Assembly: GCA_949775045.1 (NCBI GenBank)
Contig: OX459100.1
Span: forward strand, 5,927,462-5,991,461
Length of the DNA stretch: 64,000 nucleotides
Direction of reading: 5' to 3'
Origin: Metridium senile
Lineage: Eukaryota; Cnidaria; Anthozoa; Actiniaria; Metridiidae
The notes beneath the pieces were generated by a model, which saw nothing but the letters and a program-made list of their open reading frames with translations, did no database searches and was not told where the DNA came from. Position numbers and translations under genes: made by a program. Numbering within the stretch: position 1 is the first letter of the stretch; every line of letters starts with the position of its first letter. Shown here piece by piece: positions 31,306 to 62,439 of this stretch.

Positions 31306-31722
31306 TGTCCAAAAGCCACTCTTTTGAAAATAATATGTACCCTTGAAAAAATTTATTCCAAAGTATGGTATTTAATATAGTCATGAATATACTGCATAGT
31401 ATATTCACGACTATATTAAATACCATACTTTGACAACACTGTAATTAATTTTTCCTTATAAGCTATGGTTAGAATGGTTATATAGAAGGTACCATATAGA
31501 ATGCTTTCAGATAAAACATTATTGTACTTAAGACAATATTTGTGTTTGTGATTATAGTTGTCAAGGTGTAAGTAGTTTTGCGGAAAAATGTTACACCCGT
31601 CTCAGTCACACACGACAGTTCACTATAAAACATTGCTGTCTAGACTTGATCTTTGTGGACGTCAACCAATGATATTTCCAAGGAAACTCGGTCAAAATTA
31701 TCTGTTGCCGAACAGCGATAAA

Positions 31723-31828
31723 TACCCTGGGTTCCAGCGGCTCTAGAGGGGATTGGGGCGAGACAACGGCGGGGAGCGAAAGGCGGAGAGAGCCCCTGGT
31801 CTCACGAGGCACGAATCTCACTTTCGCG
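31723..31828 (+). repeat. Left terminal inverted repeat of the 10.5-kb transposon
   Basis: 106 bp, identical by eye over its whole length to the reverse complement of 42102-42207. After CACTTTCGCG the two ends diverge. Confidence 0.95.
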
Positions 31829-31844
31829 CCTAATGAGGTATCAA

Positions 31845-31908
31845 ATTCTCGCCAAACCGGTTTTTGTACTTTGTTGATTCTCGCCAAACCGGTTTTTGTA
31901 CTTTGTTG
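31845..31908. promoter_or_regulatory. 32-bp subterminal direct repeat with AAACCGGTTT palindrome
   Basis: Two exact tandem copies start ATTCTCGCCAAACCGGTTTT at 31845 and 31877, between the left terminal repeat and the transposase ATG. The 10-bp palindrome AAACCGGTTT (31854-31863, 31886-31895) appears once more at 41991-42000, just upstream of the helicase ATG. The position suggests a protein-binding or promoter element shared by both ends. That is inference. Confidence 0.55.
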
Positions 31909-31965
31909 ACATTAAGGCTCACGTGGGCGGTCGACCGGGAAAAATGACAACTCTGACAGCGTAGC

Positions 31966-34900
31966 ATGAATTTGTCTCCTCCAAAAACTCCCGTTAAAAA
32001 AATCATAAATAAGCAAAGTTTCGGCCTAGAAGATATCTGCAGACTGTGCAATATAAACGTACGAATATCTGGACTTGGTCGATTTAATATTTCAAGCGGA
32101 AAAAAGTCTATCGAACTTAAACTCGCAGAAAGGTTATCTGTTGTGGTCGGAGCGCCAATAGTTCAAGATGATAATCTCTCATCTATTATTTGCTCCAAAT
32201 GCAAACGAACCTTTGAAAAACTTGAAAAAAGCTCAAACGAACTGCGCGAATTTCAACAGATGTGCATTCTTTCAATGCAACAACATCAAGAGAACGTCGA
32301 ACTAATAGCGCGTACAAAGAGGTGCCACCGTGATTCCCCAAGCTCAAGTTCTAATGCGAGGAAGAAGAGAACTATACTATCAGAGAATACCCAAACCCAT
32401 GAACTTAATGTTCACGACGATTTTATAGTTCCACCAAAGCCCAAAGACAGAAATGCTGTCATTGAGGTAAGGATAAAGAGGAATTACGGTCGCAGTCGCG
32501 GCCCGTATGTAGTATTTAGTACGCACTCACACATATAGCACTCACAGTGTTAGACCTATATTCGTAAAGTGGAACTGTTGTCGATGAATAATAGTAGAAA
32601 TACTATGTTGTTACAATTCAGAATCATAAATCAATTGACGGACAATTAAAGTACAATTTATAATGAAGTCACAGGTCAAGACTAATCGTAGTTAAAGAGG
32701 GGATAAGCGACTATTAAAATAAGCGACAGTTCAAAGGCCGTCTCGGTTTAATAATAACACTAGGTGGTCACTTAAAGAATACGTATAGATCCGAATTTCC
32801 ATTCAGACAACTAGCTATGTACGTGGTAGACCTTCATGTGACCAAATCTTTAATATTAATATCTAAGATTTAATTCTCATATGAAAATTGTAATATTCAG
32901 TTGAAATTGATATGTACGTAAGTCGTACAATATTATTGGTATTTTTAAAGTATGATTTTGAATGTTTATGTATATTCATACTGTTGCAGGTTATAATCTA
33001 TTACCCCTCAAAACAAGTAAAAAAGCGCATTGTCGACGAATTGGATGCCCGTCTTGTAAGATCAATTGCCTGTGAACAACGAGAAGCTGCAACTAATGCT
33101 ATATGGTGTTCCACTGATCTGAAAGAGCTAATTTTGCAGAAAGTGGAACGCGATGTAAAGAAAGAGAGCACAGATGTGTGTAGTAGAAGCAATCCTTCCT
33201 GCCTATCTAATTCAGAACCTGAAAGTTTGATATGCCTGAAAGATTCCACTGTGGTAAAAGAGCTTCAAGTACGTGGACCAATACTGCATAGAGTTTTGAA
33301 GGCTGTTGCTTCTGGGAAAGACTCGAACATAAAGAAACCTGAACAAATGGATAAAGTGACCAGAGCAGTAAGCATTGCTTCATCTGTGTTGTTCAGATGC
33401 CGCACTCCATCAATGTCAGCTTTAGCTTATCGATTGTCAATATTAATGTGGCATGGAGGAGCTGAAAAACAGGTATATAAATACTGATCATAAATCTCAA
33501 AGCTTGACATTTCAGTAATTGAATAATAATTGTAATAATCAAAAATATCAAAGAATTTAAGGAAATATGATCATTGTTATTATTTAACAATCTTTAGCAA
33601 AATTGACTATTTTTAATTTAAATGGAAACTAGCAAGTAAACAAGTATAGGCTACATTGGTGTCTAATATAAATACTAGGTAAATATGTAAATATTAACAC
33701 ACTTAACTTTGCCAACATTTTGAACTTGAGCATTTTAATTTATATAATTAGCTATATTAATTTTAGTTCACAAATTAATAGATCAATGGTATACATTATC
33801 ATGTGGCTAATTAATCTATTTACTATTGCAGCTGTATTCAAGATTATGCAAAAGTGGACTCTGTATGAGTCATTGGAGAACGTTGAAAAAAATTGACCAG
33901 CTTGGCCTTGGCTTTGACGAGAAAGTCAAAGAATGGAAAGAGACCCAAATCAATCATACCCAGATATGTACAGTAGTAGATGCTATTCAGGATATTTTTG
34001 ATGTAACACCTTCAACAACAACACCTTCTCTTGCCCCTCTAGAGCCCCTGGAACCCTGGGTAGCAACACCTGTACAAACTGTAATAACTGCTGCAACAAC
34101 TGTTTCACCCGTCCACACATTTGATGGCACATCTTTGAAGGAAAGAGTGAACACAATGGTTGGAGGAAAGTTCAACGACGAGGTCTTTGCAATGGTGGTA
34201 AAGCATACTAAGGAAAACACTCGAAAAGCAGACATCATTGAAAAATTGTCAAAAGGTCCTTCTAGCTACCAACTCACAGGGGACAATCTAGACTTGCTCA
34301 TCAAAGTGAAACACATGTCTAGCACCAACCAAAACAACAGTATTCACTGGTTTAATTTAAATGGTGTGCTAAACAGGATCCAAGGAACCCATTTGTCGGA
34401 CAAAGTACCTATTAAATCCATCTTAGATGTTGAAAATTCAGATTTTCTTCCCTCGTACCAAGATAACCTGGACTTCCTTTGTGACATGATACCACTAGTT
34501 ACTCGGGTAGCAGTAACAAAGATCCCTGCTCTCCAAGAATTTAGAAATATAGTGGTTTGGCATATTCCACACCAATACTCTAAGGAGATGTCTATGAAAT
34601 CACAGCAGGTATAATTACAATCATTATTCATGAATATTATCACATTCATTGTGATCATTGTTATAATCCTTATTGTAATTATTCATTGTCATTGTCAATA
34701 GTTCTGATAATTATTATCATAATCATTGTCATTGACACAATCATTATCATAATTGTCATTGCCACAACCATCATCATAATAATTGTCATTGCCACAACCA
34801 TTATCATAATTGTCATTGACACAATCATTATTGTAATCATTGTCATTGACACAATCATTATCATAATCATTGTCATTGACACAATCATTATCATAATCAG

Positions 34901-37396
34901 TATCATAATTGTCATTGACACAACCATTATCATAATTGTCATTGACACAATCATTATTGTAATCATTGTCATTGACACAATCATTATCATAATCATTGTC
35001 ATTGACACAATCATTATCATAATCAGTATCATAATTGTCATTGACACAACCATTATCATAATTGTCATTGACACAATCATTATTGTAATCATTGTCATTG
35101 ACACAATCATTATCATAATCATTGTCATTGACACAATCATTATCATAATCAGTATCATTTCCACAATCATTATCATAATCTTTGTCATTGCCACAATCAT
35201 TATCATAATACCTATTATAATGTATCACTATATAATTAATCATCATAATTTTATTATCAATCTATCATCATTATTTTTTTCATGCAAGGTTCCTCTTGGA
35301 TTGCTGTTCAAGAATGAAAATGTCAATGAGGAGATGATAGACATCCTACAAGTTCTTCATGATAAGTATCTGCCAATTAGTAAGAACATCCAAGGTGATG
35401 AAGAGGTTGTTGAGATAATGGAAAAGCTGTTTTTTGGTGGAGATGAACTAACAGATGAGCGGGCTACACACTCGAAGGATGCCAGATCTGATGGTGACAA
35501 CCAATTTGAACGTCTAGAGGGTTTCCTGTCCAAAGTAGAAGATTGGCATGCAGTGCGTATTTTATACCAGGTGATATTTTACAACTAGTATCTGGAAAGT
35601 TAACACATATTTTTTAACTACCTTCAAAGAAAAATCATATTTTGTCAGTGTTTTTGGACAATTACTATTTTGAAACTTCACAATTTTAGATTAATTTGAC
35701 ATAAATTGAAACTTAAAGTGAAAACACTAAAACCATGAAATACAAACAAAACAGTTTCTAACCAATAGTTTTTAATAAGTCACTATTTAGTCAGTATCAC
35801 TCATCCAGAAATTTGATTCTATTTCATGGATATAGTGTTTGCACTCTATCACCTTAAATTGTATGTTAACAGTAACCTTAATAACCACTTTAAGATATAC
35901 ACCTATTTCAATTAACATTGTCCATCTGGAATGGTTGATCTGATACAAATAGGAATTGTGGGAGTTCATTAAATTTCAAATACATTGTTTTAATCACACT
36001 TGAATGGTGCTGAATTACAGATAATAGTATTTCAGAAGTTAACATTAATATTCAAGTGTGATTATAATAGTACATTTACAGTTCAATGACCTCCCACAAT
36101 ATATCAGTCTCAGATCAACCATTCCAGATGGAAAACATTAATTGAAATAGGTGTATATTCAATTTTCAAGCCAATGATATTGTGTTTTGATCATTATAGG
36201 TCTTGTATGACATATTCTTCCGCCCTAACTCTGGTAATGATATTGGTACTATGTGCAGTAATATGAATGTTATTAACAATGTGAATGCTAAGACCACTAA
36301 CGTGTTGGATAATCTGAACTATTGTAAAGACTATGTCAATTTGGAGACTGATGCCTACATTGCTGCAGCAGTTCTTAAGTATTTCAGCATGGATTCACTA
36401 ACCACACCAGCAGAATCATTTATCCCTCCTAACATCTTACATACTAGCTCAAAAGAGATCAAGAGGAAATGGTTGCATCGACACATGGAAAAAATGCTTT
36501 TCAAATTTGTAATGACTGATCAGCAGAAAGAGTTGGATGGGATGAGAAACCAATTAATAGAGGCAAACCGTCCTAAGCCAGTGCCTAAATTTAGCTGTTT
36601 TGTCTGTGGTAAGGAATACACATATTTAAAATCCAGAGACAACCACATGAGAAAGGTACATCCTGATTCTGAGGGCCCAATTGAGTCAAGTGATCCATCG
36701 ACAAAGAAACCAGAACAACCTGATTCAAAAGAAAGAGATGATGTGTACAATTATGCAAGATTACGTCTTAGCATGGGTCTCTATCTAAGAAACTTTGATG
36801 ACTCTATAAAGGAGGGAGATGGGCTACGTACCCTTAGATGTTGGAAATTTGCCTTGTTATTGTACAGAGCAAACAACCACACTAAATATGCCCTTGCTGC
36901 TTTACGACTTCAGGCATTTACCCAAGCTATGCTATCTCCACGCCTTGCCCACACTCTGATGTGGAACCGGACAGTGAATAATAAAGGTGGTGTTGGCAAA
37001 AACATTCCTATGGACTTGAGATTAGAACACTTAAATAACCTTCTTAAGGGATTGCTAAAGCATCTAGGTCCAAACCTAACTGAAAGTGCAGCAAGCAGAT
37101 GCAGCAAGTCCATTGGTCACTTTGAGAGATTGTTGGACGCTGTTGATGATGACCTAAAATTAAACCGACCAACTGGGCATCACAAAGTGCAGAAGTCTGA
37201 AGCTGACTTCAAAGCACTTGTATCTCAGTTGGCATACAAAGCAGATGTGTTCAAAGATAATCCCTCGAGCGAAAGAGAGTACACAGTTTTGACAAATTTT
37301 AGACGTAACTTGTTGTCTGGTCTTGACTTTTCATCACTGAACAGGTGGATAACACAACACAAGAAAAACTTTTTCAAACAAGAACCCATTGTATGA
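31966..37396 (+). CDS. Transposon-encoded ZAD-like/C2H2/DUF6589-type protein, probable transposase, 5 exons
   Basis: Exons 31966-32466, 32990-33472, 33832-34608, 35289-35570 and 36200-37396, all joined in phase 0, give 1,079 residues without a break. The N-terminus has a C2-C2 zinc-finger pattern (CRLCNINV near residue 25, ICSKCKRTFEKLE near 80) like insect ZAD domains, probably for dimerisation or DNA contact. The middle has QLTGDNLDLLIK, then NNSIHWFNLNGVLNRI. Exon 5 opens with LYDIFFRPNSGNDIG and contains one C2H2 finger (FSCFVCGKEYTY then HMRKVH) followed by a helical C-terminus. The GDNLD and LYDIFFRP regions are what I recognise as DUF6589, a family expanded in cnidarians and fungi. No enzymatic role is established to my knowledge. 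Transposase is inferred from its position inside exact terminal repeats. I cannot name a catalytic DDE triad. Confidence 0.85.
34034..34062 (+). repeat. Internal copy of the transposon tip inside transposase exon 3
   Basis: 29 bp matching 27 of 29 positions of the right tip of the transposon (42179-42207), starting CCCCTCTAGAGCC and ending GGGTA. It is in frame, encoding PLEPLEPWV where the true tip would read PLEPLEPRV. Confidence 0.85.
34690..35215. repeat. ATTGTCATTGACACAATCAT minisatellite in transposase intron 3
   Basis: Units of 15-18 bp (CATTGTCATTGACACAATCATTATCATAAT) are arranged in a higher-order block of about 120 bp repeated three times. Long ORFs on both strands here are artefacts of the repeat. 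It ends about 70 bp before the exon 4 acceptor. Confidence 0.95.
35900..36153. mobile_element. MITE with CACCTATTTCAATTAA ends, TA target, transposase intron 4
   Basis: The arms CACCTATTTCAATTAACATT and the pair CATCTGGAATGGTTGATCTG/CAGATCAACCATTCCAGATG are inverted. TA flanks both ends. A solo end occurs near 12155, and the ends resemble 48775-48917. It is a Tc1/mariner-style non-autonomous element nested inside the large transposon. Confidence 0.8.
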
Positions 37397-39205
37397 CAGT
37401 GAACTGTTTTATTTATTAATTTTATATAGAAGATATACAAGGAAATATTGGAATTTTTGATATGTGAAAGAAATTATTATTCTAACCACTCCAGTAATTT
37501 CATGTTGAGCATTATGTTTATTACCTTTTAATATTGCTTGTTCAAGTTTATTTCAGTATTATCAGCCCTTTAAACTGAAATTGCACTGTGTAATACAATT
37601 ATAAAAAAATATTTTCCATTTGAAATGCATTTTATTAAGCTTCTTCCAATGTGAAGTACAATATATTGAATTTACTACTATTCCCAAAAAAATATTTTTG
37701 GATTTGTGATAAGATATATAACTGTTAACTAACAGTTTTTTTTAATTGTATTTGGTTATTTACAATTAACCATACATTTACCGGTAGTGTACATACAATA
37801 TATAATATTCACTATCATTGAACAATTATTAGTAATACATCAATCAAATAAATGCCAATTTGTATTTTGATTAAAATTATTGCTTGCTGTGCTGTACATT
37901 GTCACTTGGAGTATATAAAAATGTTGAAAACTTCATGAGAACAAACGGTATAACTGCATTAGTAATTCTTACAACCAAGTACTATTAAGAACCCTATTAG
38001 AAATCACACATTGTTGGTGCTGACAAATACTTTATATGAGTACATGGCATTTCTTGTATGTTGATCAAATATGCCAATTTGTATTTAATTAAAAATTTAA
38101 AACTTGCTTGTGTGCAGTCCTTAAGCATTCTCTTAACAGTTCTCTCATGTTGACAACCCATGGATGCTTTATAAATATACACATCACACATATTGTATTA
38201 CTCTAGAGTGCATTTAGTAAAAGCGTGAAACACTATTTTGTACTATTTTATGCTAATTCTTTTGTTTTCTATTTTTCAACTAGAACTATTTTGCACAATT
38301 TAGTAATTAGTGTTTCACGCTTTTACTGAATGCACTCTACTAGGTTTTTGCTAATTCTATTGTTAAGTTAGCAACTCAATTTGCCAATTTATACCGTTTG
38401 TAAAATATATCTGTGTCTCAACAAGATTGGTTATTTTGGAATATACTTAAATGTGAATATATTACAGTAAAAACCAGCATATGACCAGGTTAAGGACCAC
38501 TAGGCTAAAAATCTAGACTGGTTCTTATATGAAAGGTTTCAAGATTTATTTGGTCATTTGAAAAATACACTTTGAGTCTGAATATGACCAAATTTAAAAT
38601 CAATGAAAAAAAAAATGTTTTACAAATGTTTTATCAGTTATTTTTCAATGAGAATACATTCATCATTCAGATGCTTCTACATAACAATTTATATAACATA
38701 AAAAAAACTATATAAGGGAAATTGTTTTTGCTTTGTAAATAAGAACCATTTAAGAACCACCTTATCCTAATTCCTCACTAAATACCAATTATATAAGAAT
38801 CACTTACGCCTAACCTTGAAAAATAGTGCTTCTAATATGCAGGTTTTTACTGTACTTAATACCATGTAGTAGCTGCAATTTAAATAACCAACTTGAATAA
38901 CCATTGTTCTTGACTCACTGGCCTCTCATTCATGTAAAAACTCCATTGTATTCCATCATGAACACAAAGCTTGTCAGTCAAGAACAATAGCAGGCCGTCA
39001 TATTTCGATTTGGTCTATTAGTACAATATAAAAATAGCAAACGTTGCAATTAGAGTACAAACATTAAAAGCGGGGAACATAATTAGTACTAAATAGTGAA
39101 ATTTTTGGTTAATTATATTGTTTTCTATTGTTTAATTATCACTAATTAGTACTACTTGTTTCACGGGTATGATATTTGTACTCTAGCTTTATAAACCTTA
39201 GTGTA
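37397..39205. other. Intergenic region between the convergent transposon genes, with two nested MITEs
   Basis: AT-rich and without a gene. It holds a palindrome at 38207-38338 (AGAGTGCATTTAGTAAAAGC mirrored) and a TA-flanked element at 38465-38852 with CAGTAAAAACC ends, the same end type as 53468-54057. Polyadenylation signals for both genes are presumably here. Confidence 0.7.
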
Positions 39206-41979
39206 TCAAACATGTAACTCCATAATACCTGATAACTCTGTCATATCTGAAGCCACAGAACCATCAGAATCACTTTCACTGTCTGATTCATAATAACCTC
39301 CAAATGCATAGTCAATATCCATATTGATGTTATCATCATCCTCTGCAATTTCAGACTCCATGTTAAGTTCAAAGTCCTCAAATACATCTCTAATCATGTA
39401 CAAAATTTTAACAGCTTGTGATTTCTTAAATACTGGAGTAAGTTCAATTAAGTCATCTAAGTTGAAAATGCTCTTGGCATTTTTAATCACACTCTTGATA
39501 AGGGAATCAGTAAATCCGGTTGTTGCTTCAGACGACAAAACATAAGCTGGACAATTCAATTCCAATTGTTTTTTATGGTCAGTCAAAAGTTCTCTCAGTT
39601 CATCTTTTTGCTGTTTTGTTACTTTCCTTTTGGTAATTGGTTTTTGTGTAGAAGGTATATTAGCAAATACGGGAACTTCAATATTACACTTGCCATCAAA
39701 ACAGTTACATTGTTCATGACATATTATGCAGCAGTCGTGACCTGCCTGCAATTCACTTCTTTTGACATCCTCCCCAAAGTCTTTGAGCAGTATTTCTCTA
39801 AGGCATTTGCCAACAGTATTAGTAGCATATTCTTTCATGGATGGGGAACATTTCTTGAGATGGATACCTGCATAAAATAATAATGACTTTGCAGGATTTC
39901 CATCTCGACCAGCTCTTCCCATCTCTTGTACAAAGTCATCCACTTCACGGGGTGGTCCATAATGAATAACATTGCGTACATCCTTCAGGTTGACACCCAT
40001 TCCTAAGGCTGTTGTTGCAAATACAACCCTACATATACCATCTGTATTAAACAGAGACTCTGCAACAGTTTCTTTGTGTTTGGGCAAGGTGTTAGCATGG
40101 TACATTGCAATTAATGAATTTTGGCAAACTTGCTTTGCACCTTCTGGGAAAAATGCCTTTTTCCCAAGTTCATACTTAAAAAATTGATATAGTTTTCCAC
40201 AATGCTTTTGCGATTTGCAATATACTATAGTTCTTGGAGTGGTGTTTCTTTCATCTCTAAGAATATCTACCAACCACTGAAAACAATCCAATGTCTTATT
40301 CACTTTAGTCTTATACAAATAAATATTTGCACGATCCGGACTGACAGTTATCTGATGTGTATCTGGCTTTAAACCCAGGCCTTCAATGGTGTCCTTCCTG
40401 ACTTCTGCTGTGGCTGTTGCAGTCAAAGCTAGCACTGGACAACCAGCAGGCAACAGAGACCTTACTTCTCCAAGCCTGAAGAAGGATTGTCTAAAGGCAG
40501 CCTTTTTCTCCTTGGCATTTCCTTTTCCCCTTGAAAATAAAGCATAGATAAAGAGACATAAGTAAAAGAACATAGTTTAAAATGATATAATGTGAGTTGG
40601 TGGAAATGAAACATGCTTAAAGTAAACTTAGGGTTGTGAGCATGTATGTAAAATCAATTCAAAATCAGTGGCAAAAAAAAAACATTTCTAAGTTAAGAAT
40701 CGACTTCTTAACTTGTTTAGTAGTTTTAATAAATTAAAACTAATAGGAGTTGATTCTTAAAAGAAGTGAATTAGAACTAATAAATACTTTTATACTGATT
40801 TGTGTGGATTTACTACGATTAAAAGTTTAATTTAGTTTGATTTGTGTGGATCAAGGTTTAAAGTTTAAGTAATTTATACGTTTTTTTATACAGTGTGCTC
40901 CATGTTCTCGACGTCAAACAACACAGTCCAATTTAAAGTGAAGTTATTGTGTTTGTATCGGTGAATCCAATAAAATTATCTGATAAGTTATGATAATAAT
41001 CAACTATGTTTTGTTAATGTAAGTAAACTAATCGGAAAAATCAAAATGTTTTGAGGTTTTTAGTTGTTATTTACTGTCGGTTGATCCGTTACAGAATGCG
41101 TTGCTCTTTTATTAAAACTTGTAGTTCAACTAAGTTATATAAAGTGCAATTCAAACTTACCACTTAGGAACTACATGTGCCTCATCTGTTACAAGACCAA
41201 ATAACCGTTCCTGGTATACAGGAGATTTCAGCATTTCACGCCATTTTTGGTTCTCCACTATCGATTCAGGATTTGCGAATACAATGGAGAACTTGCCAAC
41301 TTTCACGTCCGCTTCAGCGACATTTTCATCAGAAAGCGAACACGATGAAATGCCAACAGCTTCCAATTCTTTCATGTGCGAAGAAATAAGCGAATTCAGC
41401 GGCCATACGACCACAATTATTGGCTTTGAGGGGTAATCAAAACCTGTCTTGCTTAAATAAGAAGCGACTCCAGGAACAGCTTGGAATATCAGCGATTTTC
41501 CGCTTCCTGTGAAGAAATAGAAAACGAGGCAGCGTGCTCTGTTGAGTTATAGAGCACGCGGGGATTTTAAGAAGACGAGCGAAGCGTTAGGAGAAGCACG
41601 ACGCGTAGCGGAGTGCTTCTCAGCGCTTCTCGAGTCTTCTTAAAATTCCCAAGTGCTCTATAACTCAACAGAGCACTGCTGCCGAGTTTTCTATTTCTTT
41701 TATAAAATATTCAGTAGTTAAAATCAAACAAATCGACGCTCCGTGTACTGTTGAGTTATAGAGAACGCTTCTCAGCCAATCAGAGCGCGTGATTTAAATC
41801 AAATATTTTATAATAGGCAATACAGCTATTACATCTCTCCTTTTAATAAAAGTCAAAAGGGCATCTTCTTGAACTTCTTTCATCTGCTGGACATTTGGGA
41901 AACTTTCGAGTGTATTCTCTACAGCTTTACGATATTCTTGAACAAACACTAGATCATCATCATTCACTTCGCTCGCCAT
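39206..41979 (-). pseudogene. Transposon-encoded RecQ-like superfamily-2 helicase, ORF interrupted in Walker A
   Basis: On the minus strand the ATG is at 41979. Coding pieces are 41979-41815, 41510-41161 and 40529-39206. The last junction is a clean intron (41160-40530, donor GTAAGT, acceptor TTCAAG). Motif I ends in TGSGKSLIFQ, motif Ia is VVWPLNSLIS, motif II is TDEAH, motif III ALTATATA, then VVFATTALGMGV (motif V) and VQEMGRAGRDG (motif VI). A Cys/His cluster (HDCCIICHEQCNCFDGKC) follows, as a zinc-binding element. The order is RecQ-like; I see no clear winged-helix or HRDC domain. Without the 304-bp insertion 41511-41814 the pieces would make 612 residues. The insertion falls between LP and TGSGK and has no GT-AG pair that restores the frame, so this copy is probably dead. 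A RecQ-type enzyme could unwind DNA during transposon excision or repair; that role is inferred. Confidence 0.82.
41511..41814. mobile_element. 304-bp hairpin-rich insertion splitting the helicase Walker A motif
   Basis: Flanking helicase sequence reads continuously across it (CTTCCTGT before, AGGCAATAC after), leaving at most one duplicated base. It contains a long palindrome (GAAATAGAAAACGAGGCAGC mirrored near 41680-41700, with AGCGTGCTCTGTTGAGTTAT arms) and then an AT-rich half ending ATATTTTATAA. A shorter relative is at 53063-53139. Lack of a clear duplication and the terminal hairpin recall Helitron-like non-autonomous elements; I do not see the canonical ends, so the class is open. Confidence 0.75.
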
Positions 41980-42101
41980 TTTGTTTGTGGAAACCGGTTT
42001 TATCACAAGGTGATAAAAATAACTCAGACTGACCAATGAGAGCGCAGTTTCTATCGGATCTTATTGAGAGCCAATCAAATGACGAGTACAGATTCTGTAC
42101 T

Positions 42102-42207
42102 CGCGAAAGTGAGATTCGTGCCTCGTGAGACCAGGGGCTCTCTCCGCCTTTCGCTCCCCGCCGTTGTCTCGCCCCAATCCCCTCTAGAGCCGCTGGAACC
42201 CAGGGTA
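42102..42207 (-). repeat. Right terminal inverted repeat of the 10.5-kb transposon
   Basis: Mirror of 31723-31828. It ends GGAACCCAGGGTA and is followed at once by the AGCGATAAA duplication. Confidence 0.95.
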
Positions 42208-42927
42208 AGCGATAAATTACCTTTACAAAAAATTTGTTTAAAATAGATCATATTTTGATAGAATTGAATCTTCTATTTGTCTTTTTATCAGACCTTTTCA
42301 TCCTAGAATACTCGGAAATCAATGTTGGAGAGATTGAAATCAATTTAAACCATTTTTCGGGCAGAAACTCTACTTACAAGTTTATTATCGCAGATCTGCA
42401 AATTTATGGACATTTCCTTGGAAATTCATTCATTTGATTTGACGTCCATCATAATCAAGTTTAGACGGCAATGTTTTATAATAAACATGCACGTGTGACT
42501 GAGAACAGCTGTAATGTTGGTATATCTGATGAGACAATTCACAACCTGAATGGAGGGAGAATTTTAGACCTTATTCAAGACAACTTTTAAGTTGGAATGT
42601 ATACTAGCTGGCCCTATTTTCACCACTTATAACTCTGCAGCAAAATGCTAGCTATTGTTATGCAAATAACCTAAATCTTGTGAAATCACCTTTATTCTTT
42701 GTTGTGTATCATTGCCACAGGCATTGGCAGGTATTTAAATCTCCTCGCACCAAAATACAGGGCTTTAGATGATTTCGACAACGCAGCTACATATAGCTAC
42801 ATAAAACAATTCCAATCTGTGACTTGCAACAATCTACTTTATTATTGCAGCTGAATATTGATTTTGTGTTTTTGTTGTTGTTGTTGTTTTTGACAGAATA
42901 AAATTAAGAGAAGTTGAATACTAAACT

Positions 42928-45900
42928 ATGGCATTAACCAGTGAAAGGCCAGAGAAACAGCCAGAGAATGGTGACCCTGACCTATTGCCTGTTATGCAGA
43001 TTGATTCACACCACGATGATGATCAGCACAACACAGGTACATATTTAGCCTGCACAACAGTCGTTCTTTTGGGAAAAATTGGGTTTTGGGCTTCCTGTGT
43101 TTCTTGGGGTATCACGATAACACAGGAACCCCAAAATCTGATTTTTCCCCAAAACCCAAAAGAACACCTGTTGTGCAGGCTAGTACATATTAGTAACTTT
43201 AGTAAACGTGGGTTTCCTTGAAATAGACCTAGTGACTTGCAATACTATTACTAACTTGCACTCTGAAGATGTGACAGCGATGTAAAAGAACCACACAAGA
43301 CATAACAAACCCTGACCTCCCTTATGCACCTATCATTGTTTTGCACCAACAGGGGGAGAGCGGGCAAAGCCGGGCTATTGAACATAAATGATCGATGTTT
43401 TTTGACAATTTCATCACAAAGTTCTTCGTCCACAACAGTAAATATATGAGTAAGTATATTAATTTGACGTCCCCAGGATACGAGCTTTTGACAAAGAGAT
43501 ATGAAAAATGTCAATAGCCCCTGGGTATGCCCACACTCCCCCCGTTGGAGCAAGACATTGATAGGTGCATTAGTGTCTGATTCGTACCAACACATACTAC
43601 TCTCGCTAACCTGCATTGTGAGGATGTAAGAGAACTATAAGATGTAACTAACCCTGTTGTGACTGGCTCACACTAACATGTACCAGATACCAGATTCTCA
43701 AATGTGCATCTTCATAATTTCCCCTTATTGCATATAAATTGCACATAATCATCATTATCATCATCACCACCATTATCATCAACATCATCATAATGGTTAT
43801 TTATCATATCATCATTACATTGTCATTATCATATCACCACCATCATACTGTCATCAGATACATTCATGTCATTATATTGTACCATCACCATCATTATCAG
43901 TTCAGAATCATCATAATGTCATGATCATTATTTATCACATCATCATTATATTGTCATTATCATATCATCACCACCATCCTACTGTCATCATCATTACATA
44001 ATTTATACCATTATCATGATATGATATGGTAGCTAATCACCTTTCCTGATCACCATAAATTATATTCAAATTTCCATTTCATACCTTATCACAGGTCCAA
44101 TGAATTGTTGTCATAAAGTCTTAACTCCAGATGTGAAAAAGCTCATACATCAAATGTTTCAGCTTGCATGGGCAGTTGTTGTCGGCAATTTATTTACGTT
44201 TCTTGTCAATACACAAAGTATCCTATTCTGTGGTCATCTTGGAGCAACAGAGCTAGCTGCAGGCTCTTTGAGTAACACTATTGTAATGATTTTTGGACTT
44301 TCGATAGCTGTTGGCATGGCCAGTGCACTAGATACACTGTGTTCCCAAGCATATGGTGCCAAGAACTTCAAAATGGTTGGTGCAGTGCTTCAGCGAGGGA
44401 TTTTAATTTTGGCAATAGCTGGAGTGTTTGTTTGTGGATTGTGGCTGGTAATCCAACATTTTTTACTCCTAATCGGTTTTGAGAGTCACATTGCAAAGTA
44501 AGTAAAGTAAAGATAAATGGAAACTAGCAAGTAAACTAGTATAGGCTGCGTCGGTGTTTGATATAAACGATAGGTAGTATTATAATGAAATTTGTAACAC
44601 CGTAAAAAAAGTAAAGTTAAGTTTAGTAAAGTTAAGTCAACATTTTTTACGGTGTTACAAAAACAATTACCTTAAGTAAATATTGGACTTGCTAGCATAT
44701 CATGTTCACGTTTTAAACACAAAGGCATTAAATCTAGTCAGTTGTAATTGGTTGGTAAAATAAAAATTAGTCAAAAGTAAAAGTAGACACCAAGGTTTGG
44801 TTTTTAGGATTATTTATCTTAGAGATTTTGGCTTCAAATGGAAGCCTTTACCAGGGACGTTCAGTCCACGCACTTTGAGCAATCAATATCCAGTGAAACA
44901 ATTGGCTAATAAATGATATATATAAATTGAGTCGGTGTTATTCCTAGGACAAATTCAAATTTCATAAGTGAGACTGCAAGTGAAGTTCTGTCCAAGAAAA
45001 GGAACAAAGACGAGAGTATGTTTTCCTTCTAATTTCATTCTTGTTGGGCTAAACGTTCACTCTGTCAATCTAAATCATCCCAGATTTTTGTGTTAGAGGA
45101 GAGGCTGTTTTACAGTTGATTTATTTTGACTGTTTGCTTGTTTGTTTTTCTTTTTTGATTTTGTTGTTTATTGTAGGATGGCAGATATGTTTATGATTAC
45201 AATGCTTCCCATGATTCCAGTAAGTATACGGCTTATGCAGTATGCATGCATGTACAACAAGGGGCGTAGCGTGGTCATTCTGACAAGTACGCACAGATAT
45301 GGATTTTTTACTTTTGAATACAAAAACATCTGGAAAATGATTAAAAAATATTTGAAAATTTCCGTCTCAAGTATGCATGTGCATATTTGCGTAATAGATG
45401 CTACGCCCCTGACAACATCACAATACTGATAATGGTATAGTTGGGTTGAATACACTTCGTAGTTTTAAGAAATTTAATTCCAGGCTTTTGGGTATAAGTG
45501 ACCAATCTTCAGGGAGGGATGTTACTTGACAAGAAGACTGTTGTATCTACGTAACCATAACAAACTAATAATTGTATGGTTTCAGAGATATAACTAATTT
45601 CTTGTCATTGTTAACATCCTTTGTACGCTTGTTGAAGCGGATTTGTTAAACTAGATAATCGGCACGTAAACCTTCAGCAAATTTTTTTTAGTGATCTCGA
45701 TTGGTGTATAGTTAATGATTGGGATAGCCCATATCTGACACCTTAGATATCAGTGATCAAATAAAACCAATCAAATTTTCTGATTTGTGTGGAAAGTCAC
45801 CTAGTGTGTTTGATCTTCTGTTTATAATAAGTAATTATGTACAGAAATAAGTTAATGGCAATCATCATAACATATCAATAACATCAATTAATGATATGTA

Positions 45901-50518: not shown

Positions 50519-53500
50519 ATACAATTTTATAAATTCAAGACAAAGTTTATGAAATTAAAAACAAAATGCTTAGTTCATACAATATACTAGTATATGATAT
50601 ACAATTCCCTAAATTACATAGTTTTAAATAGCATAACTAGCACCCAGTCCTCGCATTCACATCTCTACTATGATATTATTTATGCACCTGGGTTTACAAC
50701 TTAAGCACCAATTAAGTCAAAGGAATTATACATATTTTGTATACAGCTAAAACACTAATATGTGTGTATGATTATGATCCACATACCCAGACCCACATAC
50801 GTAAAAACAAAATAGTTATACTAACCAATTGTATCTATTTAGTGAGTATTGACAGAGTCATATCACTCATCAACCAGAAATATCAAATACAAAAGGAAAC
50901 AATACCTCATTACAACTTTACTTGTCTTTTATAGTAACTAATAGACACTAAATATAAGAACTATTACACAGTAGCAATTTGATTTTATTTCATGAATAGT
51001 GACACTTGAAACTTGGAATAGTTAAAATGTCTGTCAATCTGGACAACCTTTATGAAAATGGCTGTATATTAGCCTCCTCCCCCGGCAACTTCTCACCTTG
51101 TCCTCATCTTCTTTTTTCTCCACAAAGGAAGCCCAAAATAGAAAGAATTCCGGTGGGTTGCCTGCGGAGGAGCTAGCTAGCTGTATATAATGCTAATGAT
51201 ATTTTTAATATGTTGCTGTAGGAATGTAATCAACCTCATTTTAGATCTGACACCATTTGTGGCTTTCTTTCTGTTTTTAGACTCTACTCAGGTAAAGTAA
51301 ACTTTATTACAGACAACTCTTATTATGTATAGTTTAATAAACGAGCAGGAGTGTTTTATCAGGATTTAAAACCATGAGGCGAAGCCAAGTGGTTTTAAAC
51401 CTGATAAAACACAATCTGCGAGTTTATTGAACGACTCCAACCTATATTTTGTGTTTTTGTAAAAAAAATCAAGGATTTATGAAACTTTTTTAGAGAAAAT
51501 TAAGGTTAAAGTTTATGTAAATTAGGGTGAATCTATATCTTCAGTTAAAACACTCGTCACAGTTACGATTTCTTTTGAAAATTTCTCATGAATTATTAAT
51601 GAGTTTTTGAATTAACCTTAAAAAATTCATTTATAATTCATAAGCAATTTACAAAAGAAACCATAACCGTGGAAGAGGTTGTATGTCTGATAAAACACTA
51701 GTGTTGATTATTGTGATGTGCATAAGTTTGAACTTCCTGAGTCTCCCTCTTTGTGTTACAATTACAATGAGAAACAGATAGCAGGAGAGTTTTAACTCGC
51801 CTGCTTAAGTGTGCAGCCCATTGGCAAATAGCTCGTTGGGTTTTGACAAATCAGAACATATGTGTTTTAATTATGCAGCTAAATAGAAACATCCATTAAT
51901 GCATATTGGTATAGTTACAGGGGCATTCTTATCAATAAGATAACAGAAAGTACTCTGCCCGTTGCATTTATAGATCTATACATGTATGACAGGACATCTA
52001 AGGAGCAATTCTTAAGCATAATAGTGTCTCAAATATAATAATGGTATACTAGTAATACATGGTATAATACCTTGTTGTAGTTAATATCTGGGTCAAAACA
52101 TGGTATTTTGGTTCTCTGTTCCCCTCCGTAACACTTGACATTTGTTATTGTGACCAAGATACAGATGTTTGTATATTTGTTTACTCTTGTGCCTGTAGTA
52201 CTGGTAGGTATCATATACAAACATCTGTATCTTGGTCACAATAACAAATGTTAATTAAGTGTTACGGAGGGGAAGTACAGAGAAACCAAAATACTGTGTT
52301 TTGACCCTGATCTATAAGTTATTCTATGTTGTTAGGGTGTTAGTGCTGGCATATTACGTGGCTGTGGTCGACAGAAGGTTGGTATGCTTGTAAACTTTGT
52401 CTCCCATGAACTTATTGCAATTCCACTGGGTGTTGTCCTTGGTGTTGTTATGAATCTACAACTTAAAGGTAAGCAAGTAATACTGTTGTAAATTTACATT
52501 TATAATTGATATCATCACAATAATCATCACCATCAATGATCATCACCATTTTACAACAAAACAAAATGAGGTAGACTGAGAGCTTACATGGGGGCTTTTA
52601 ATAATAACAAGACACTCTAGGAGCGTGAAGTCTGGCTAGTCATAAAATCAAAACAGGAGGCTAAACAATTCTACGTTGGGCTTCCTGTGTTCATTCCCAA
52701 AGCATCATGGGGCCTATACGCGACATGACAGATAGATACATAGATATATAGATACATAGATTGACTAAAAGGTAAACCTAGAGTCTGGCCCTCTAGCCCG
52801 ACTAATAATAATAATATAATAAGCTTTATTTATATAGTGTTAGATCCTCTAATAGTCCATAACGCTTTACAAGTCTAATTACAAATAATTCATTATATAC
52901 AAGTATTTTAATTAGACATTTTAGATGCCACAACACAGGCCATACCCCATACCCCAAACTTCATCCTGTCGAGCTAGCTCTGGACTTGCTAGACCCTGGT
53001 CCTCCAACAGTCTCCATCCCACATTGCAACGTACAGTGGGCAGTTTACTACTGAATATTTTACAAAAGAAATAGAAAACTTGGCAGCAGTGCTCTGTCGA
53101 GTTATAGAGCACCAACTGCCTCGTTTTCTATTTCTTCAATAATAATCATTATCATCATCTTCATCACAATTAATTATAACAACTGTTAAATGAGTAAATG
53201 CAAACAACAGTATCATCAAGAACAAAATCATTATTAAGTGCGTTATTAATTCTCTACCTGAATAGTGGGAAATTATTTCATTTTGGTCTTGAATGGAATG
53301 TCCATCAAACCAGCTTATATGATTTATAAAACAATTGTTACCAATAAAACATCATCTTTTTCTTTGGTTCTATAGACTGAAACTCATTGTTTTTGTTTGT
53401 ATTTTAGGTGTTTGGTATGGCATTTCGGCTGGCATATTTGTACAGGTATTTTGACACTATAATTATACAGTAAAAACCTGTAAGAACCTAGGTTTTTTCA

Positions 53501-56500
53501 AGTTAGCCTCCTTAGGTTCTTATATAAATCGTGCTTACTGTGAATTTAGGCTACTAGGTTCTTAATTAGCAGGGGCGGATCCAGCATTTTGACAAGGGGT
53601 GAGGGGGGGAGGGGGGGGGGGGGGTGAACTTTGATATCCTTTTGGTGGATAACGGCAGGTACAAGAGCACAAAGATTGTAATGTGCCTGCTTTTCTTTGC
53701 TAAAACGGGACTTAACTGCAAAAGGGGGGGATGGTCAAAACTCACCCAGTTCACCCTCTGGGTCCACCCCTGATAAGGTTCTTAGTTTTTGTTCAAAATA
53801 AATAATTTATATATTCATTGGTGTGGTTGCCACTATATATTGAATCATTTATGTATTTTTTTTTACTTATGTATACTATGTGCCTCAAAATAATATGAAC
53901 AGTAACCAAAGTCATGTACTTAGAATTAACTGTAACACAACATCATAACCATAGAAATAAATCAAAGAACCTGTTTAGATTTTAGCTAAGTGTGGTTCTT
54001 ATTTTTAGCCTAACTGGTTCTTTAATTGTAGGTTCTTATATGGGCAGGTTTTTACTGTATTCAATAGGAAAATAACTTTTCCATACATTAATAATTTTTA
54101 ATGTTTTTATGGTAAATGTTAAAATGTTAAATAAATGCCCGGGGGGGGGGGGGGGGTACTTGACCCAGTTTCTGACGGGGACGTTCCGCTGGTACCTCTA
54201 AACTCTGACCCTATTTAAGACAGCAGAATCCTAAAAATATGTACCCTATTTCAAGACAAATTGGTAAAAAGTAGACCCTATCCAAGACTCAAGGGGGAAA
54301 TTGTATACCCTAGGTAAGGCAATTTAAGACAAATTAGGCTAAATTGTATACCCTATTCAAGACGCCAAGGCAAAAAACCATACCCTATTTGGCGGAACGT
54401 CCCCGTATAGTAAATATAAGGGAGTACCCTCCCCGGGAATAAATGTTAAATAAAAGTTTTTTGTTCTAATCTCAGGCTGCTTCATATGTAGTTGTTGTTT
54501 TAAGTACAAACTGGAAAAGACAAGCAGAACTGGTAAGGTTTAATTAAAACATTTTTGATTTCATATCTTTGTTGGTTGACAAATTTGATAGTGAAAATTT
54601 TCTTTTTCTAATGAATTATCTATTTGTTTAAATATAACACTGGAGTGATAATAGTCTATTAACCTGGACAAAGATCACCACACAATCTGTTTGGATAAAT
54701 ATTTTTAGCTATGTAAAAAGGTCAAATTAGCACTGATATGACCAATTAAAAGTCAACCCATCAAATAAAATTTCAAATAAATTTCAAATGTTAAAGGGCA
54801 GTGGCAGCTTTACCCTGGCAAAATAGTTTACAGTGGCAATTGACCCTGAGAGGTGGGACGGCTGAATTGAAATCCATGCACCTGTGCCCAATTTCCCAAC
54901 CAAACAAGATTTTAAAATAAAACGAAGTATGGCATAAAAACTCTATTGCTTACAATATCTTCTATAGGTTATAAATTGTGGATATGAAATTAGTAGATAA
55001 TCTTCTTTTGCCCCAGGAATGTCCAAGGTTTGGACCACTATTTTTTGACTGCTACGTATACTGCTAGTCTTCATCAGTCTACCAACTGCCTGATAAAGAC
55101 TTGCAGTAGTTAAGAAATGATATACGTCTTCTGTGTTTTCACGCGTTTATGAAAACCGACATGTGTTTTGGGAGAATTCTCCCAAACATATCGAGGCTTT
55201 CATAAGATAGTGAAAACACAAAAGATGTGTTTCATTTTTTTTATAAAAGATCAAAACAACGAAAACACTGACTATTGAATGAGTGTGCACGCTTGAAAAT
55301 GGCGTGAGTGTGAAACACAGGTTTTTGACCAATCATTGCGTGCATACTATCACAATTATTTCATAAAACCTTTGACATTTGTGAGACAAACAATATGTTC
55401 TTTACTAATTGACAAAGATGATAATTTATAAAAATGTAACAACAAACATAAATTTGATTTTTTTAAAAATGCTTTTTAAGGCAAAATCTTGAACTACATG
55501 GTGCTGCCATTAGAATTTGTTTGCAAACATTTTTTTTTTTACTAGGCTATGAAGAGAACATCCAAAGGACACAAGCTCAAACCACCGAAAACAAGTTCTG
55601 ATTTAAATGGCAAGGAAGATCACTATGAGTTAAAAGAGACAACAAATGGTGACATTGTTGAGGATGGAAAAGAAAAACAACACGAAGAAGGTATATACCA
55701 TTTCTATTTATTCATTTATTAGTAGTTCTGATCAACATTTCACAGTCATATCTACGGTCTATCTAGTTAAACTGAGGCCACTCAACAAAACACCTTTTTA
55801 CTATTTACTGTCAACTATTATTACAGCAGTTCTCAGTCACACGTGCACCGCACGCATAAAAAGCACCGCTATAAAACGTGAAGTTGGTGGACGTCAATCA
55901 AACTGTGTTTACAAGATGCATGGAGTTATTATTTCATTCGGGCTGCGAAACATGTCTGAATCCGACGAAGAGGTTGTTGAGGGAATTCAGCTCCCAGATT
56001 ACGATGAAACGCAGATATTCCAAAACGAAAATGAAATCGTAAGTTTGATTGACGTCCACCAACTTCATGTTTTATAGCGGTGCTTTTTATGCGTGCGGTG
56101 CACATGTGACTGAGAACTGCTGTAAAGTCATTGAAACTAAATGCATTCACAGCCATCCCTGAGTCTGCTATATCTACGGCGCATCTAGTTCAACTATTGC
56201 CCCCCAGTCAAGGCCTTTTTACTATTTGCTGTTAACGATTATTAAAGTCATTGAAACTAAATGCATTTACAGCATCTACTTCAACTAAGGCAACCGAAAC
56301 AAATAATTGTTCAATACATATAATATGTTTGAAATCAAACCCCAATCCAAAGTTATATCTTATTCACTCTTGCTGTACTTTGTTCATATATATTTACTAT
56401 AATAAAAATATTTGAAAGATTAAACTAAAGTTGTGTTTTAAATGCTTCTGTACAATACAAAAATCACTCAAATCTGGTAATTTTTTTTTTGCAATCATTT

Positions 56501-56878
56501 ATTGTTATCAATAATACTGAATATATGTATAATATCTATTTTACATTTATTTAAATGTGTCTTATTTTCTCAACAGATGTTTGTCCTGCTGCTAATGATT
56601 TGGTTGTCAGGAATGTAGCATTATCTTCAGAAACTATAAATTCTGATGATGATTTGGTTGTCGAGAATGTTACACATTCGTTGGGAAAAACAAGTATAAA
56701 AAAGCTAATCCTGTTACGTTCAATTCCTTTTCTTATAGCAGTTCTATTTTTGTGTGTAGCCATCTGTATACGTTTTCTTGTCCCTCTCCCTACCGCATAT
56801 GTTAGAACTCATAATTCTGGAAATCAAACAAACTCTGCAACAAATGGAACATTTCCAAATAGAACTGTAAATCTATAA
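42928..56878 (+). CDS. MATE-family (SLC47-type) multidrug and toxin extrusion transporter, 15 exons
   Basis: Exons: 42928-43036, 44095-44497, 45177-45219, 46170-46312, 47064-47161, 48057-48170, 48473-48540, 49052-49160, 49985-50060, 51222-51291, 52336-52468, 53408-53445, 54476-54532, 55546-55690 and 56577-56878. The total of 1,908 nt codes for 635 residues. MATE hallmarks: GHLGATELAAGSLSNT, GMASALDTLCSQAYGAKN, LIKYLHNQGIVRPIVL, PGMLMICMEWWTFEIMTF (the family's conserved second-half helix), SMSASILVGSFLGAND and GVSAGILRGCGRQKVG. A long charged loop (RTSKGHKLKPPKTSSDL onward) precedes a final hydrophobic helix (PFLIAVLFLCVAICIRFL), giving the 13-helix plan known from animal MATE1. Such proteins export organic cations in exchange for protons at the plasma membrane. 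The frame is intact through all junctions. Confidence 0.95.
43046..43182. mobile_element. 137-bp palindromic MITE with 9-bp target duplication at the MATE exon-1 donor
   Basis: The ends TAGCCTGCACAACAG and its mirror (with GTTCTTTTGGG arms) are flanked by GTACATATT at 43037-43045 and 43183-43191, an exact 9-bp duplication. The left GTACATATT starts with the GT donor of MATE exon 1. A diverged relative is near 5548-5690 (TAGCCTGCAAACAAGCGTTC). Confidence 0.9.
43324..43573. mobile_element. MITE with TGCACCTATCA ends, MATE intron 1
   Basis: TGCACCTATCATTG and ATTGATAGGTGCA are inverted ends, with TTGACAAAGAGATATGAAAA and GGGGCTATTGACA-type interior. A related copy is at 45901-46140 (ATGCACCTATCAATGGAGTG with CCCGCACTCCCCCTGTTG). 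Confidence 0.7.
43738..44030. repeat. ATC-rich degenerate microsatellite, MATE intron 1
   Basis: Imperfect CATCATCATTATCAT array up to about 65 bp before the exon 2 acceptor. Comparable arrays are at 49560-49905 in intron 8. Confidence 0.85.
46385..47035. repeat. 650-bp polypyrimidine tract (TTCTTTTC/TTCTGTTC), MATE intron 4
   Basis: Almost pure C/T plus-strand array of TTTTCTCTTC and TTCTGTTCTGTT units, with a 62-bp higher-order period at 46550-46770. It ends about 30 bp before the acceptor at 47062-47063. It gives open frames in all three plus frames that are not genes. Confidence 0.95.
47369..47527. mobile_element. MITE with GTCCTTTTCACAGTTCCG ends, copy 1
   Basis: The arms GTCCTTTTCACAGTTCCGTT and the CAGTGACCACAAATGATAGT part are mirrored, and TA flanks both ends. 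Copies 2 and 3 are 59359-59562 and about 60229-60390. Confidence 0.85.
48775..48917. mobile_element. 143-bp MITE with CACCTAATTCAAAAAAGG ends
   Basis: CACCTAATTCAAAAAAGGTT plus GACGGGGCGAAC is perfectly mirrored, and TA flanks both ends. The interior repeats GCGATTGGCGATTG/CAATCGCC. A partial copy ends near 7233. Confidence 0.88.
50378..50521. repeat. (AAAT)n microsatellite
   Basis: About 35 AAAT units with one A-rich interruption near 50430, in MATE intron 9. The minus-strand Leu-Phe-Ile-Tyr ORF here is an artefact. Confidence 0.97.
51333..51430. mobile_element. Fold-back repeat with GTTTTATCAGG arms
   Basis: GAGTGTTTTATCAGGATTTA and the mirror TAAACCTGATAAAACAC form a hairpin of about 95 bp in MATE intron 10. 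Confidence 0.7.
52090..52312. mobile_element. Palindromic MITE in MATE intron 10
   Basis: The long arms include GGGTCAAAACATGGTATTTT, CCCCTCCGTAACACTT and ATTGTGACCAAGATACAGAT, each mirrored in the right half, with a loop of about 30 bp near 52180-52205. Confidence 0.8.
52615..52795. repeat. Dispersed repeat, copy 2 (first copy 4845-5025)
   Basis: Same orientation and order of blocks as the first copy, including AGGAGGCTAAACAATTCTAC and GATTGACTAAAAGGTAAACC. Confidence 0.75.
53468..54057. mobile_element. TA-flanked element with CAGTAAAAACCTG ends, holding a nested element
   Basis: CAGTAAAAACCTG and CAGGTTTTTACTG are the ends, and TA flanks both. Degenerate TAGGTTCTTATAT repeats sit near both ends. 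At about 53570-53775 a second element with GGGGCGGATCCAGCATTTTG and CTGGGTCCACCCCTG ends is nested inside. Located in MATE intron 12. Confidence 0.75.
54138..54442. mobile_element. MITE with CCCGGGGGGGGTACT end and GGGGACGTTCCGC arms
   Basis: GACGGGGACGTTCCGC near 54176 is mirrored by GGCGGAACGTCCCCGT near 54393, and GGGAGTACCCTCCCCGGGA closes the right end. The interior consists of ACCCTATTCAAGAC-like repeats. Confidence 0.8.
55829..56123. mobile_element. Mariner-type MITE with TA duplication and a short conserved frame
   Basis: The ends CAGCAGTTCTCAGTCACACG and its mirror have arms of about 85 bp that include CCGCACGCATAAAAAGCACC. TA lies on both sides. An undisturbed copy of the target (GATTATTAAAGTCATTGAAA at about 56238) sits in a tandem duplicate right downstream and shows TA in place of the element. 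The centre reads MSESDEEVVEGIQLPDYDET, an acidic peptide of unknown origin. Confidence 0.88.
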
Positions 56879-57955
56879 AGCTTAATTGATAAATATATGA
56901 AGGAATGCAACTTAGGTGAACATTGCAACATGTAGTTTTTTAAATACTAGTTTTGAAAAAGCTTTTATAAGTTGAATGTTAATTTATTTAGGTGAGCATT
57001 TGTATACATCTATAAAGTTTAATTGATAAATATATGAAGGAATGCAACTCAGGTGAACATTACAACATGTGGTTTTTCAATACTAGTTTTTTAAAAGCTT
57101 TTATAAGTAGAATGTTAATTTTTTTAGGTGAGCATTTGTGTAAATCTATAAAGCTTAATTGATAAATATATGAAGGAATGCAACTCAGGTGTACATTGCA
57201 ACATGTAGTTTTTTAAATACTAGTTTTTAAAAAGCTTTTATAAGTTGAATGTTAATTTTTTTAGGTGAGCATTTGTATATATCTATAAAGTTTAATTGAT
57301 AAATATATGAAGGAATGCAACTCAGGTGAACATTGCAACATGTAGTTTTTTAAATACTAGTTTTTTAAAAGTTTTTATAAGTTGAATGTTAATTTATTTA
57401 GCTGGGCATTTGTGTAAATCTATAAAGTTTAATTGATAAATATATGAAGGAATGCAACTCAGGTGAACATTGCAACATGTAGTTTTTTAAATACTAGTTT
57501 TTAAAAAGCTTTTATAAGTAGAATGTTAATTTTTTTAGGTGAGCATTTGTATATATCTATAAAGTTTAATTGATAAATATATGAAGGAATGCAACTCAGG
57601 TGAACATTGCAACATGTAGTTTTTTAAATACTAGTTTTTAAAAAGCTTTTATAAGTAGAATGTTAATTTTTTTAGGTGAGCATTTGTATATATCTATAAA
57701 GTTTAATTGATAAATATATGAAGGAATGCAACTCGGGTAAACACTGCAACATGTAGTTTTTTAAATACTAGTTTTTAAAAAGCTTTTATAAGTTGAATGT
57801 TGATTTATTTAGGTGAGCATTTGTGTAAATACAAAAAGTTTAATTGATACATATATAAAGGAATGCAACTCAGGTAACATTGAAATATGTAGTTTTTCAA
57901 TACTAGTTTTTATAAGTTGAATGCTATATTTTTTAGGTGAGCATTTGGAAACATT
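56866..57955. repeat. 136-138-bp tandem array, about 8 copies, directly after the MATE stop codon
   Basis: Units contain TCTATAAAGTTTAATTGATA, ATGAAGGAATGCAACTCAGG and TTTTTTAAATACTAGTTTTT. They start near 56872, 57010, 57148, 57284, 57420, 57558, 57694 and 57828. The first unit begins in the last codons of MATE (GTAAATCTATAA), so the stop codon and its context are part of the unit. The array would form most of the 3' UTR. Confidence 0.93.
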
Positions 57956-61894: not shown

Positions 61895-62439
61895 TTTGGA
61901 TGTAAAATATTGAGGGATATACACAAATAATCTTGTAAATTTCTGAGTTTTCCCTTTTGTTTCTTGTATTTGCGCGCCAAAACATTACCCATGATGAACC
62001 GCGCTTCAAATTTTCCCATGATGCTTTTCTGTATTTGGGTTCCCTGTGTTTTCACGAATCTTATTGCTCTAAATATTTTTTTATTGTTTTGTTGTAACCT
62101 TTATTTTGTCGTAAATTTTTCCTTTAAAATGTGCATTTAAGGATCATCAAGTTTATTTATTCATTATCTATTTATAGGAAATTTTTTCACTTTAAAACAA
62201 TAAATTGGCTTTTATCACAAGTATAATTTATATTCCCTTTTCCTTTTTCCTTAGAGACTATTTGCTAAAAATCAACATTTCTTCTTTTATCTTTCTCTTT
62301 ACATGTAATTTTTTTCAAAATGAAAAAATTCCCATGATGCGTTGTGAGGCTTCAAATACCCAGCATCCTTTGCAAGCCGTTCTCTTCGTCCACATCATTG
62401 TTCGCGAGTCCTTGTGTTGCACAAAGAAATCCAGCAAAA
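61895..62439. promoter_or_regulatory. Shared 545-bp region between divergent GINS3 and DAD1
   Basis: The two start codons point away from each other with 545 bp between them, so promoters and 5' UTRs of both genes must lie here. TTTCCCATGATGC occurs near 62013 and TTCCCATGATGCG near 62328, a repeated CCCATGATGC motif. A GGGTTCCCTGTG fragment near 62038 is a repeat remnant. No TATA box is evident. Confidence 0.5.

Follow-up and report, generated by a model that had tools for sequence, protein, structure and literature searches.

A multicopy DNA transposon of Metridium senile that pairs a DUF6589 gene with a RecQ-type helicase, most likely of the AcademH lineage

A stretch of 10,485 base pairs (bp) in the genome of Metridium senile, at positions 31723–42207 of a 64,000-nucleotide (nt) sequence that we call the window, is one copy of a multicopy DNA transposon carrying two genes, one for a DUF6589 protein and one for a RecQ-type helicase. 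In our reading, to which we give a probability of roughly 0.85, DUF6589 is the predicted DDE transposase, the helicase likely assists it, and AcademH is the most likely lineage of the family. The copy is bounded by terminal inverted repeats (TIRs) and 9-bp target site duplications (TSDs), and the convergent gene pair recurs across the host genome.

Results

Boundaries and Insertion Site of the Element

The left TIR (31723–31828, plus strand) and the right TIR (42102–42207, minus strand) are complementary at 106 of 106 bases, with mismatch starting at base 107, and the 9-bp sequence AGCGATAAA adjoins both of them exactly (31714–31722 and 42208–42216). The ends given in a preliminary description of this DNA, which had reported exact 106-bp TIRs and an exact 9-bp duplication, therefore stand to the base. 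The TIRs have a G+C content of 64%, compared with 35% for the window. Immediately inside the left TIR lie two exact 32-bp direct repeats (31845–31908, plus strand), each containing AAACCGGTTT, which is found elsewhere in the window only at 41991, between the helicase start and the right TIR; these repeats are possibly a subterminal site for the transposase or a promoter site. Both genes start close to the TIRs, the DUF6589 gene at a distance of 137 bp and the helicase gene at 122 bp, and they run toward each other, a five-exon DUF6589 gene on the plus strand and a RecQ-type helicase gene on the minus strand, as the preliminary description had it.

The insertion site provides independent evidence of movement. 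The flanks of the element (31591–31722 and 42208–42514) form the two arms of a single inverted repeat with 77% identity across 102 columns, so an older inverted-repeat element has been interrupted by the transposon. The terminal 28–30 bp of this flanking repeat (TTACAGC.GTTCTCAGTCACA) recur face to face at 55820 and 56128, and the interval 55820–56128 is, from these ends, probably a second member of the split element in the window.

Other Copies and Short Derivatives in the Host Genome

We searched the host genome (389,276,800 bases in 169 contigs) for the TIR. The best 40 of 332 candidates were scored and resolved into 17 pairs and six single ends; the eight long pairs other than the window copy were fetched, giving nine full-length copies for comparison, the window copy included. 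The TSD test was applied to 16 of the 17 pairs, all but a 996-bp one, and to none of the six single ends. Exact 9-bp TSDs, all of different sequence, flank 14 of these 16 pairs: seven of nine long pairs, counting the window copy, and all seven short ones. The preliminary description had made its case depend on further copies with the same ends and 9-bp duplications, and such copies exist.

Two copies are almost identical to that in the window (C15, 99.97% over 9,788 bp; C2, 99.99% over 7,671 bp), and block-wise identity to it is about 94 to 99% for C1b, C12b, and C16. The transposase frame is intact in five of the nine full-length copies. The helicase frame (612 amino acids in two exons) is likewise intact in five of the nine and also in one further copy, where the outer 20 bp of one TIR have no match. 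Intact copies of both genes exist in the host genome, and our verdict is that the family was recently active.

Elements of 751 and 723 bp join the left end of the full element to its last 566 bp on the right, and over these parts they are 98.4–98.8% and 93.3% identical to it, respectively (the latter with a 28-bp gap counted). They contain the helicase gene only in part and no DUF6589 coding exon. Because neither protein is encoded in full and yet these elements have 9-bp TSDs of their own, they were very likely mobilized in trans by intact copies.

The 27-nt end, with up to one mismatch allowed, has 356 matches in the genome, compared with none for the reversed pattern; among 100 listed places, there are 24 neighboring pairs (91 bp to 15.1 kb) and 52 unpaired ends. 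We also observed ultrashort elements of 91 to 144 bp that hold little beyond the two ends (e.g., C2:35071971–35072061 and C2:33567651–33567745). One TIR pair, C16:6708544–6735981, spans 27.4 kb with ∼17.5 kb of extra internal DNA and has no 9-bp TSD.

Convergent Pairing Across the Genome

We then asked how often the two genes occur together. Both genome searches scored only the best candidates, and matches on the same strand within 4 kb were merged; at least 103 DUF6589 matches and at least 96 helicase matches gave 85 merged loci each. A helicase was found within 20 kb at 61 of the 85 DUF6589 loci and ran convergently at 59 of these 61, where random placement would yield 0.75 pairs in any orientation. 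Many of the 59 convergent pairs are copies of one family and do not count as 59 independent events. Measured against the window query, helicase identities fall from 100% to about 30% and, taken with the convergent pairing, indicate that the pair has been maintained for a long time. The pairing of DUF6589 and helicase is that of a lineage and not an accident. A DUF6589 family with a 926-residue frame, represented by C1:38103974 and nine similar loci (on C1, C2, C5, C8, C10, and C15), has no scored helicase within 20 kb at any of its ten loci, and it is possibly a helicase-free or differently built branch.

Beyond the window family, ends were examined in three families (C5, C8, and C14), of which C5 and C8 had been picked from the DUF6589 list before the helicase positions were known. 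The C5 element (C5:14471573–14480144) has 65-bp perfect TIRs and a 10-bp TSD (GCTTCTCTGG), the C8 element (C8:13013574–13023461) has 56-bp perfect TIRs and a 9-bp TSD (GGTGAAGCT), and each encloses a DUF6589 gene and a convergent helicase. In the C14 copy, both genes lie within TIRs that are 89% alike over 117 columns and flanked by ACTGTATGT, a TSD of about 9 bp with a boundary ambiguous by one base. The C14 family comprises five paired loci, and its C1 copy matches the C14 copy at 99.84% across the 8,750 bp that were aligned for comparison. The gene order recurs in distant families and is therefore not peculiar to the window family. The claim that a single mobile element carries the two genes is supported by the TSD-flanked copies, the 59 convergent pairs among 85 loci, and the three further families.

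The DUF6589 Gene and Its Product

The splice model of the plus-strand DUF6589 gene has five exons and four GT-AG introns, all in phase 0, and yields 1,079 residues free of stops, in agreement with the unbroken protein described earlier. Exon 1 (31966–32466) encodes a ZAD-like C4 finger and is followed by exon 2 (32990–33472), exon 3 (33832–34608) with D479 of a proposed D-D-E set, exon 4 (35289–35570) with D639, and exon 5 (36200–37396) with a C2H2 finger and E957. Intron 3 contains a minisatellite (34709–35209, plus strand) whose length varies from copy to copy.

The Pfam DUF6589 model matches residues 530–1009 of the spliced protein well above its cut-off (E value 4.6e-46; 157.8 bits vs. 27), so the earlier identification holds. 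The earlier finger claims stand as to the residues, with conserved C25, C28, C76, and C79 fitting a ZAD-like finger and conserved C814, C817, H830, and H835 fitting a C2H2 finger. However, the zf-AD (ZAD) match remains below the Pfam cut-off of 28 bits (18.8 for the whole protein, 22 when the exon piece is run separately, and up to 25.2 in relatives). A profile of the protein run against solved structures gave marginal matches to three chains (E values 0.063 to 3.5), which we take to be ZAD structures, in addition to finger proteins; the best row, an RNA-editing complex protein (E value 0.00076), covers profile positions 772–821, the region of the C2H2 finger.

A homolog search with the whole protein returned no relatives at an E value of 0.001. 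The DUF6589 region found ten with E values of 1.6e-63 or better, 32–54% identical and all bearing DUF6589, in two corals, lancelets, a sea cucumber, and a sponge; they are labeled unnamed, uncharacterized, or hypothetical or have bare codes. No fungal relative was among these ten, the search being limited by length and word filters. Viral and genome contig collections yielded no relatives of the transposase, and the viral contig collection had no exact TIR.

The residues conserved across the relatives include D479 (GDN.D), D639 (FGGD), a WH pair at 673–674, and E957 (LEH), with E886 conserved equally and thus an alternative last acid. All three distant families retain D639 and E957, and the two whose alignment extends to D479 retain that residue as well. 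The gap between D639 and E957 measures 318 residues. From these conserved residues and by exclusion, we infer that DUF6589 is a DDE transposase.

The Helicase Gene and Its Private Insertion

The pieces of the helicase gene match the Pfam models DEAD and Helicase_C and include a Cys cluster common to relatives. Two relatives have the RecQ family model as best match (E values 4e-56 and 4.7e-58), below its curated cut-off. LPTG.GK, a DEAH-type box, and the Cys cluster are present in the full-length relatives. From Pfam matches and copy comparison, the gene in the window reads on the minus strand as the first part of exon A, from the ATG to VLP (41814–41979), the second part of exon A, from GSGKS to DEAH (41161–41510), and exon B (39206–40529), with the motifs after II, Helicase_C, the Cys cluster, and the stop.

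Between VLP and GSGKS, the window copy contains a palindromic insertion of 304 bp, one base being ambiguous (approximately 41511–41813), that splits motif I (Walker A). None of the eight other long copies in the comparison has it; the C15 copy has an uninterrupted VLPTGSGKS and a two-exon helicase of 612 residues. Since the insertion is private to the window copy, the earlier description of a RecQ helicase with motifs I to VI and a Cys cluster is right for the family and not for this copy. Downstream of the insertion, the helicase pieces are open frames. We scanned GT donors from ∼41919 to 41600 against AG acceptors at 41440–41600 and found two in-frame joins that start at a donor lying ∼90 bp upstream of the insertion. 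The first reads TGSGKS and the second RSGKS, and neither retains the preceding stretch ending in VLP. We treat the insertion as probably disrupting the helicase, although rescue by splicing is conceivable. No more than one base was duplicated when the insertion arose, an unusual outcome for cut-and-paste integration, and a shorter relative of the insertion lies at 53044–53138.

A Copy of the Element End Within Exon 3

The terminal 29 bp of the right end recur within coding exon 3 with 27/29 matches (34034–34062, plus strand), where they encode LEPLEPWV in frame. Among 100 simple shuffles of the interior, the highest score was 20/29, and the rest of the window reached 19 at best. All nine full-length copies have this internal end, exact in eight and with one extra base in the ninth, and it was not seen in the aligned DUF6589 relatives. 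It may serve as an active second end or be an inert relic.

Discussion

In the mechanism that we propose, the zinc fingers of DUF6589 would bind the element ends, and the protein would cut and join DNA through D479, D639, and E957, a putative D-D-E set with a long insertion, the C2H2 finger inside it, ahead of the last acid. DUF6589 would insert the element with a 9-bp stagger, and the helicase would unwind DNA at the ends or the target or help gap repair afterward. The preliminary description had named DUF6589 as the likely transposase; the TSD-flanked copies, the convergent pairing, and the three further families strengthen that proposal, in which the catalytic role is the predicted part. 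By analogy with hAT elements, the 318-residue gap between D639 and E957 would suit a DDE enzyme whose last catalytic acid is preceded by a long helical insertion. hAT transposases produce 8-bp duplications, and no hAT family was among the Pfam matches of the DUF6589 protein.

The family most likely belongs to the AcademH lineage of Academ, a placement by described features rather than by comparison of transposase sequences, because helicase content and duplication length both agree. AcademH reportedly occurs in animals and fungi, to go by the title of work by Kojima from 2020. A paper citing that work describes AcademH as carrying a helicase and having target duplications of 9 or 10 bp, and it suggests that the duplication length of Academ elements tracks the carried enzyme, helicase or nuclease (PMC10045372). 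Here, the element encodes a helicase, 59 of 85 DUF6589 loci have one convergent with them, and TSDs measure 9 bp in the window family and 10, 9, and about 9 bp in the three others, which upholds AcademH as the nearest known case. KolobokH was considered and rejected, because it makes TTAA duplications, in contrast to the 9-bp duplications of varied sequence found here. Like the window family, it is a DNA transposon with a RecQ helicase (PMC9587614). We found no printed link between DUF6589 and AcademH in the literature searched, and PMC12730594 makes no mention of Academ.

Several observations weigh against the AcademH transposon reading. A scored helicase is lacking within 20 kb at 24 of 85 DUF6589 loci, two of the 61 pairs are not convergent, and 24 helicase loci have no assigned DUF6589 locus, although some of these may be host RecQ genes. 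The 9-bp TSD is absent from two long copies, C16 (27.4 kb) and C1b (11.5 kb), both of them diverged. Within the family, the ratio of nonsynonymous to synonymous substitution rates (dN/dS) is 0.37 to 3.2 on 6 to 28 changes, with no clear constraint; given so few changes and partly decaying copies, we did not use it as support. In Pfam, the function of the DUF6589 family is given as unknown, and D479 lies before, and thus outside, the matched residues 530–1009. Structure models were poor (mean predicted local distance difference test scores of 58.3 and 42.8), and fold searches with them gave no usable match.

Some of these points would also suit other explanations. The helicase could be a passenger, dispensable for transposition, as one might suppose from the window copy, where the helicase is broken and yet the TIRs and TSD are perfect, from the 24 DUF6589 loci with no scored helicase, and from a dN/dS that is not low. 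The break is private to this copy, however, and may postdate its insertion, and convergent pairs at 59 of 85 loci with helicase identities down to about 30% leave this explanation with a small share of our belief. A smaller share still goes to the idea that DUF6589 protein is accessory or regulatory, with the true transposase supplied by the host or by another element. The poor fold models and two finger-like regions would accord with it, but the listed open frames of the element include no third gene (exon pieces only were run against Pfam), DUF6589 recurs in families with unrelated ends, and it has three conserved acidic residues with a spacing compatible with a DDE enzyme that contains an insertion; we consider such a role very unlikely. 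Helitrons are not known to have TIRs or target duplications, and Kolobok elements duplicate TTAA. Given TIRs of this length and 9-bp duplications that differ in sequence, rolling-circle (Helitron-like) or Kolobok-type movement, in place of DDE chemistry with a 9-bp staggered insertion, is extremely improbable, even with a helicase present in the element and a RecQ helicase in KolobokH (PMC9587614).

The taxonomic alternative is that DUF6589–RecQ elements form a superfamily of their own, resembling AcademH only in helicase and duplication length. The likeness to Academ is one of described features, DUF6589 goes unmentioned in the literature searched, and neither a ZAD-like N terminus nor a C2H2 finger is mentioned for Academ in the available portions of PMC10045372, PMC9587614, and PMC10294476. 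With both reported AcademH features present and 9- or 10-bp duplications in four families, we nevertheless think this unlikely. A more specific version, in which a separate non-Academ superfamily combines a zinc-finger DDE transposase with an obligate head-on RecQ partner and the end copy at 34034–34062 is functional, seems to us distinctly unlikely. If it held, the transposase could cut inside its own gene, either limiting its own activity or releasing a 2.3-kb subelement.

If the AcademH reading is correct, DUF6589 proteins and helicases often listed as unexplained host proteins would belong to one transposon lineage, and DUF6589 would gain a likely function as a transposase. The genome-wide pairing gives both genes a likely home in a single lineage of helicase-carrying DNA transposons. 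Several helicase relatives are named as Werner-like or RecQ-like genes, and the result would correct such annotations and caution against counting these helicases as expansions of DNA-repair genes. The broad concept of helicase-carrying Academ elements is already published. The near-identical recent copies would allow tests of the helicase's role and of the origin of 9- to 10-bp duplications in a cut-and-paste element.

Neighboring Features of the Window

Outside the element, Pfam identified host genes for a tyrosinase domain (13725–14786), a MATE transporter (44037–44498), and PSF3 (GINS; 61454–61984). An open frame at 8655–9647 has no Pfam match and resembles a Penelope-type reverse transcriptase with a GIY-YIG end. 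The window also contains satellite arrays at 682–1526 and 56868–57912, with units of 88 and 137 bp, respectively; intron 2 of the transposase gene includes a stretch, at about 33614–33700, that is matched by part of the 88-bp array.

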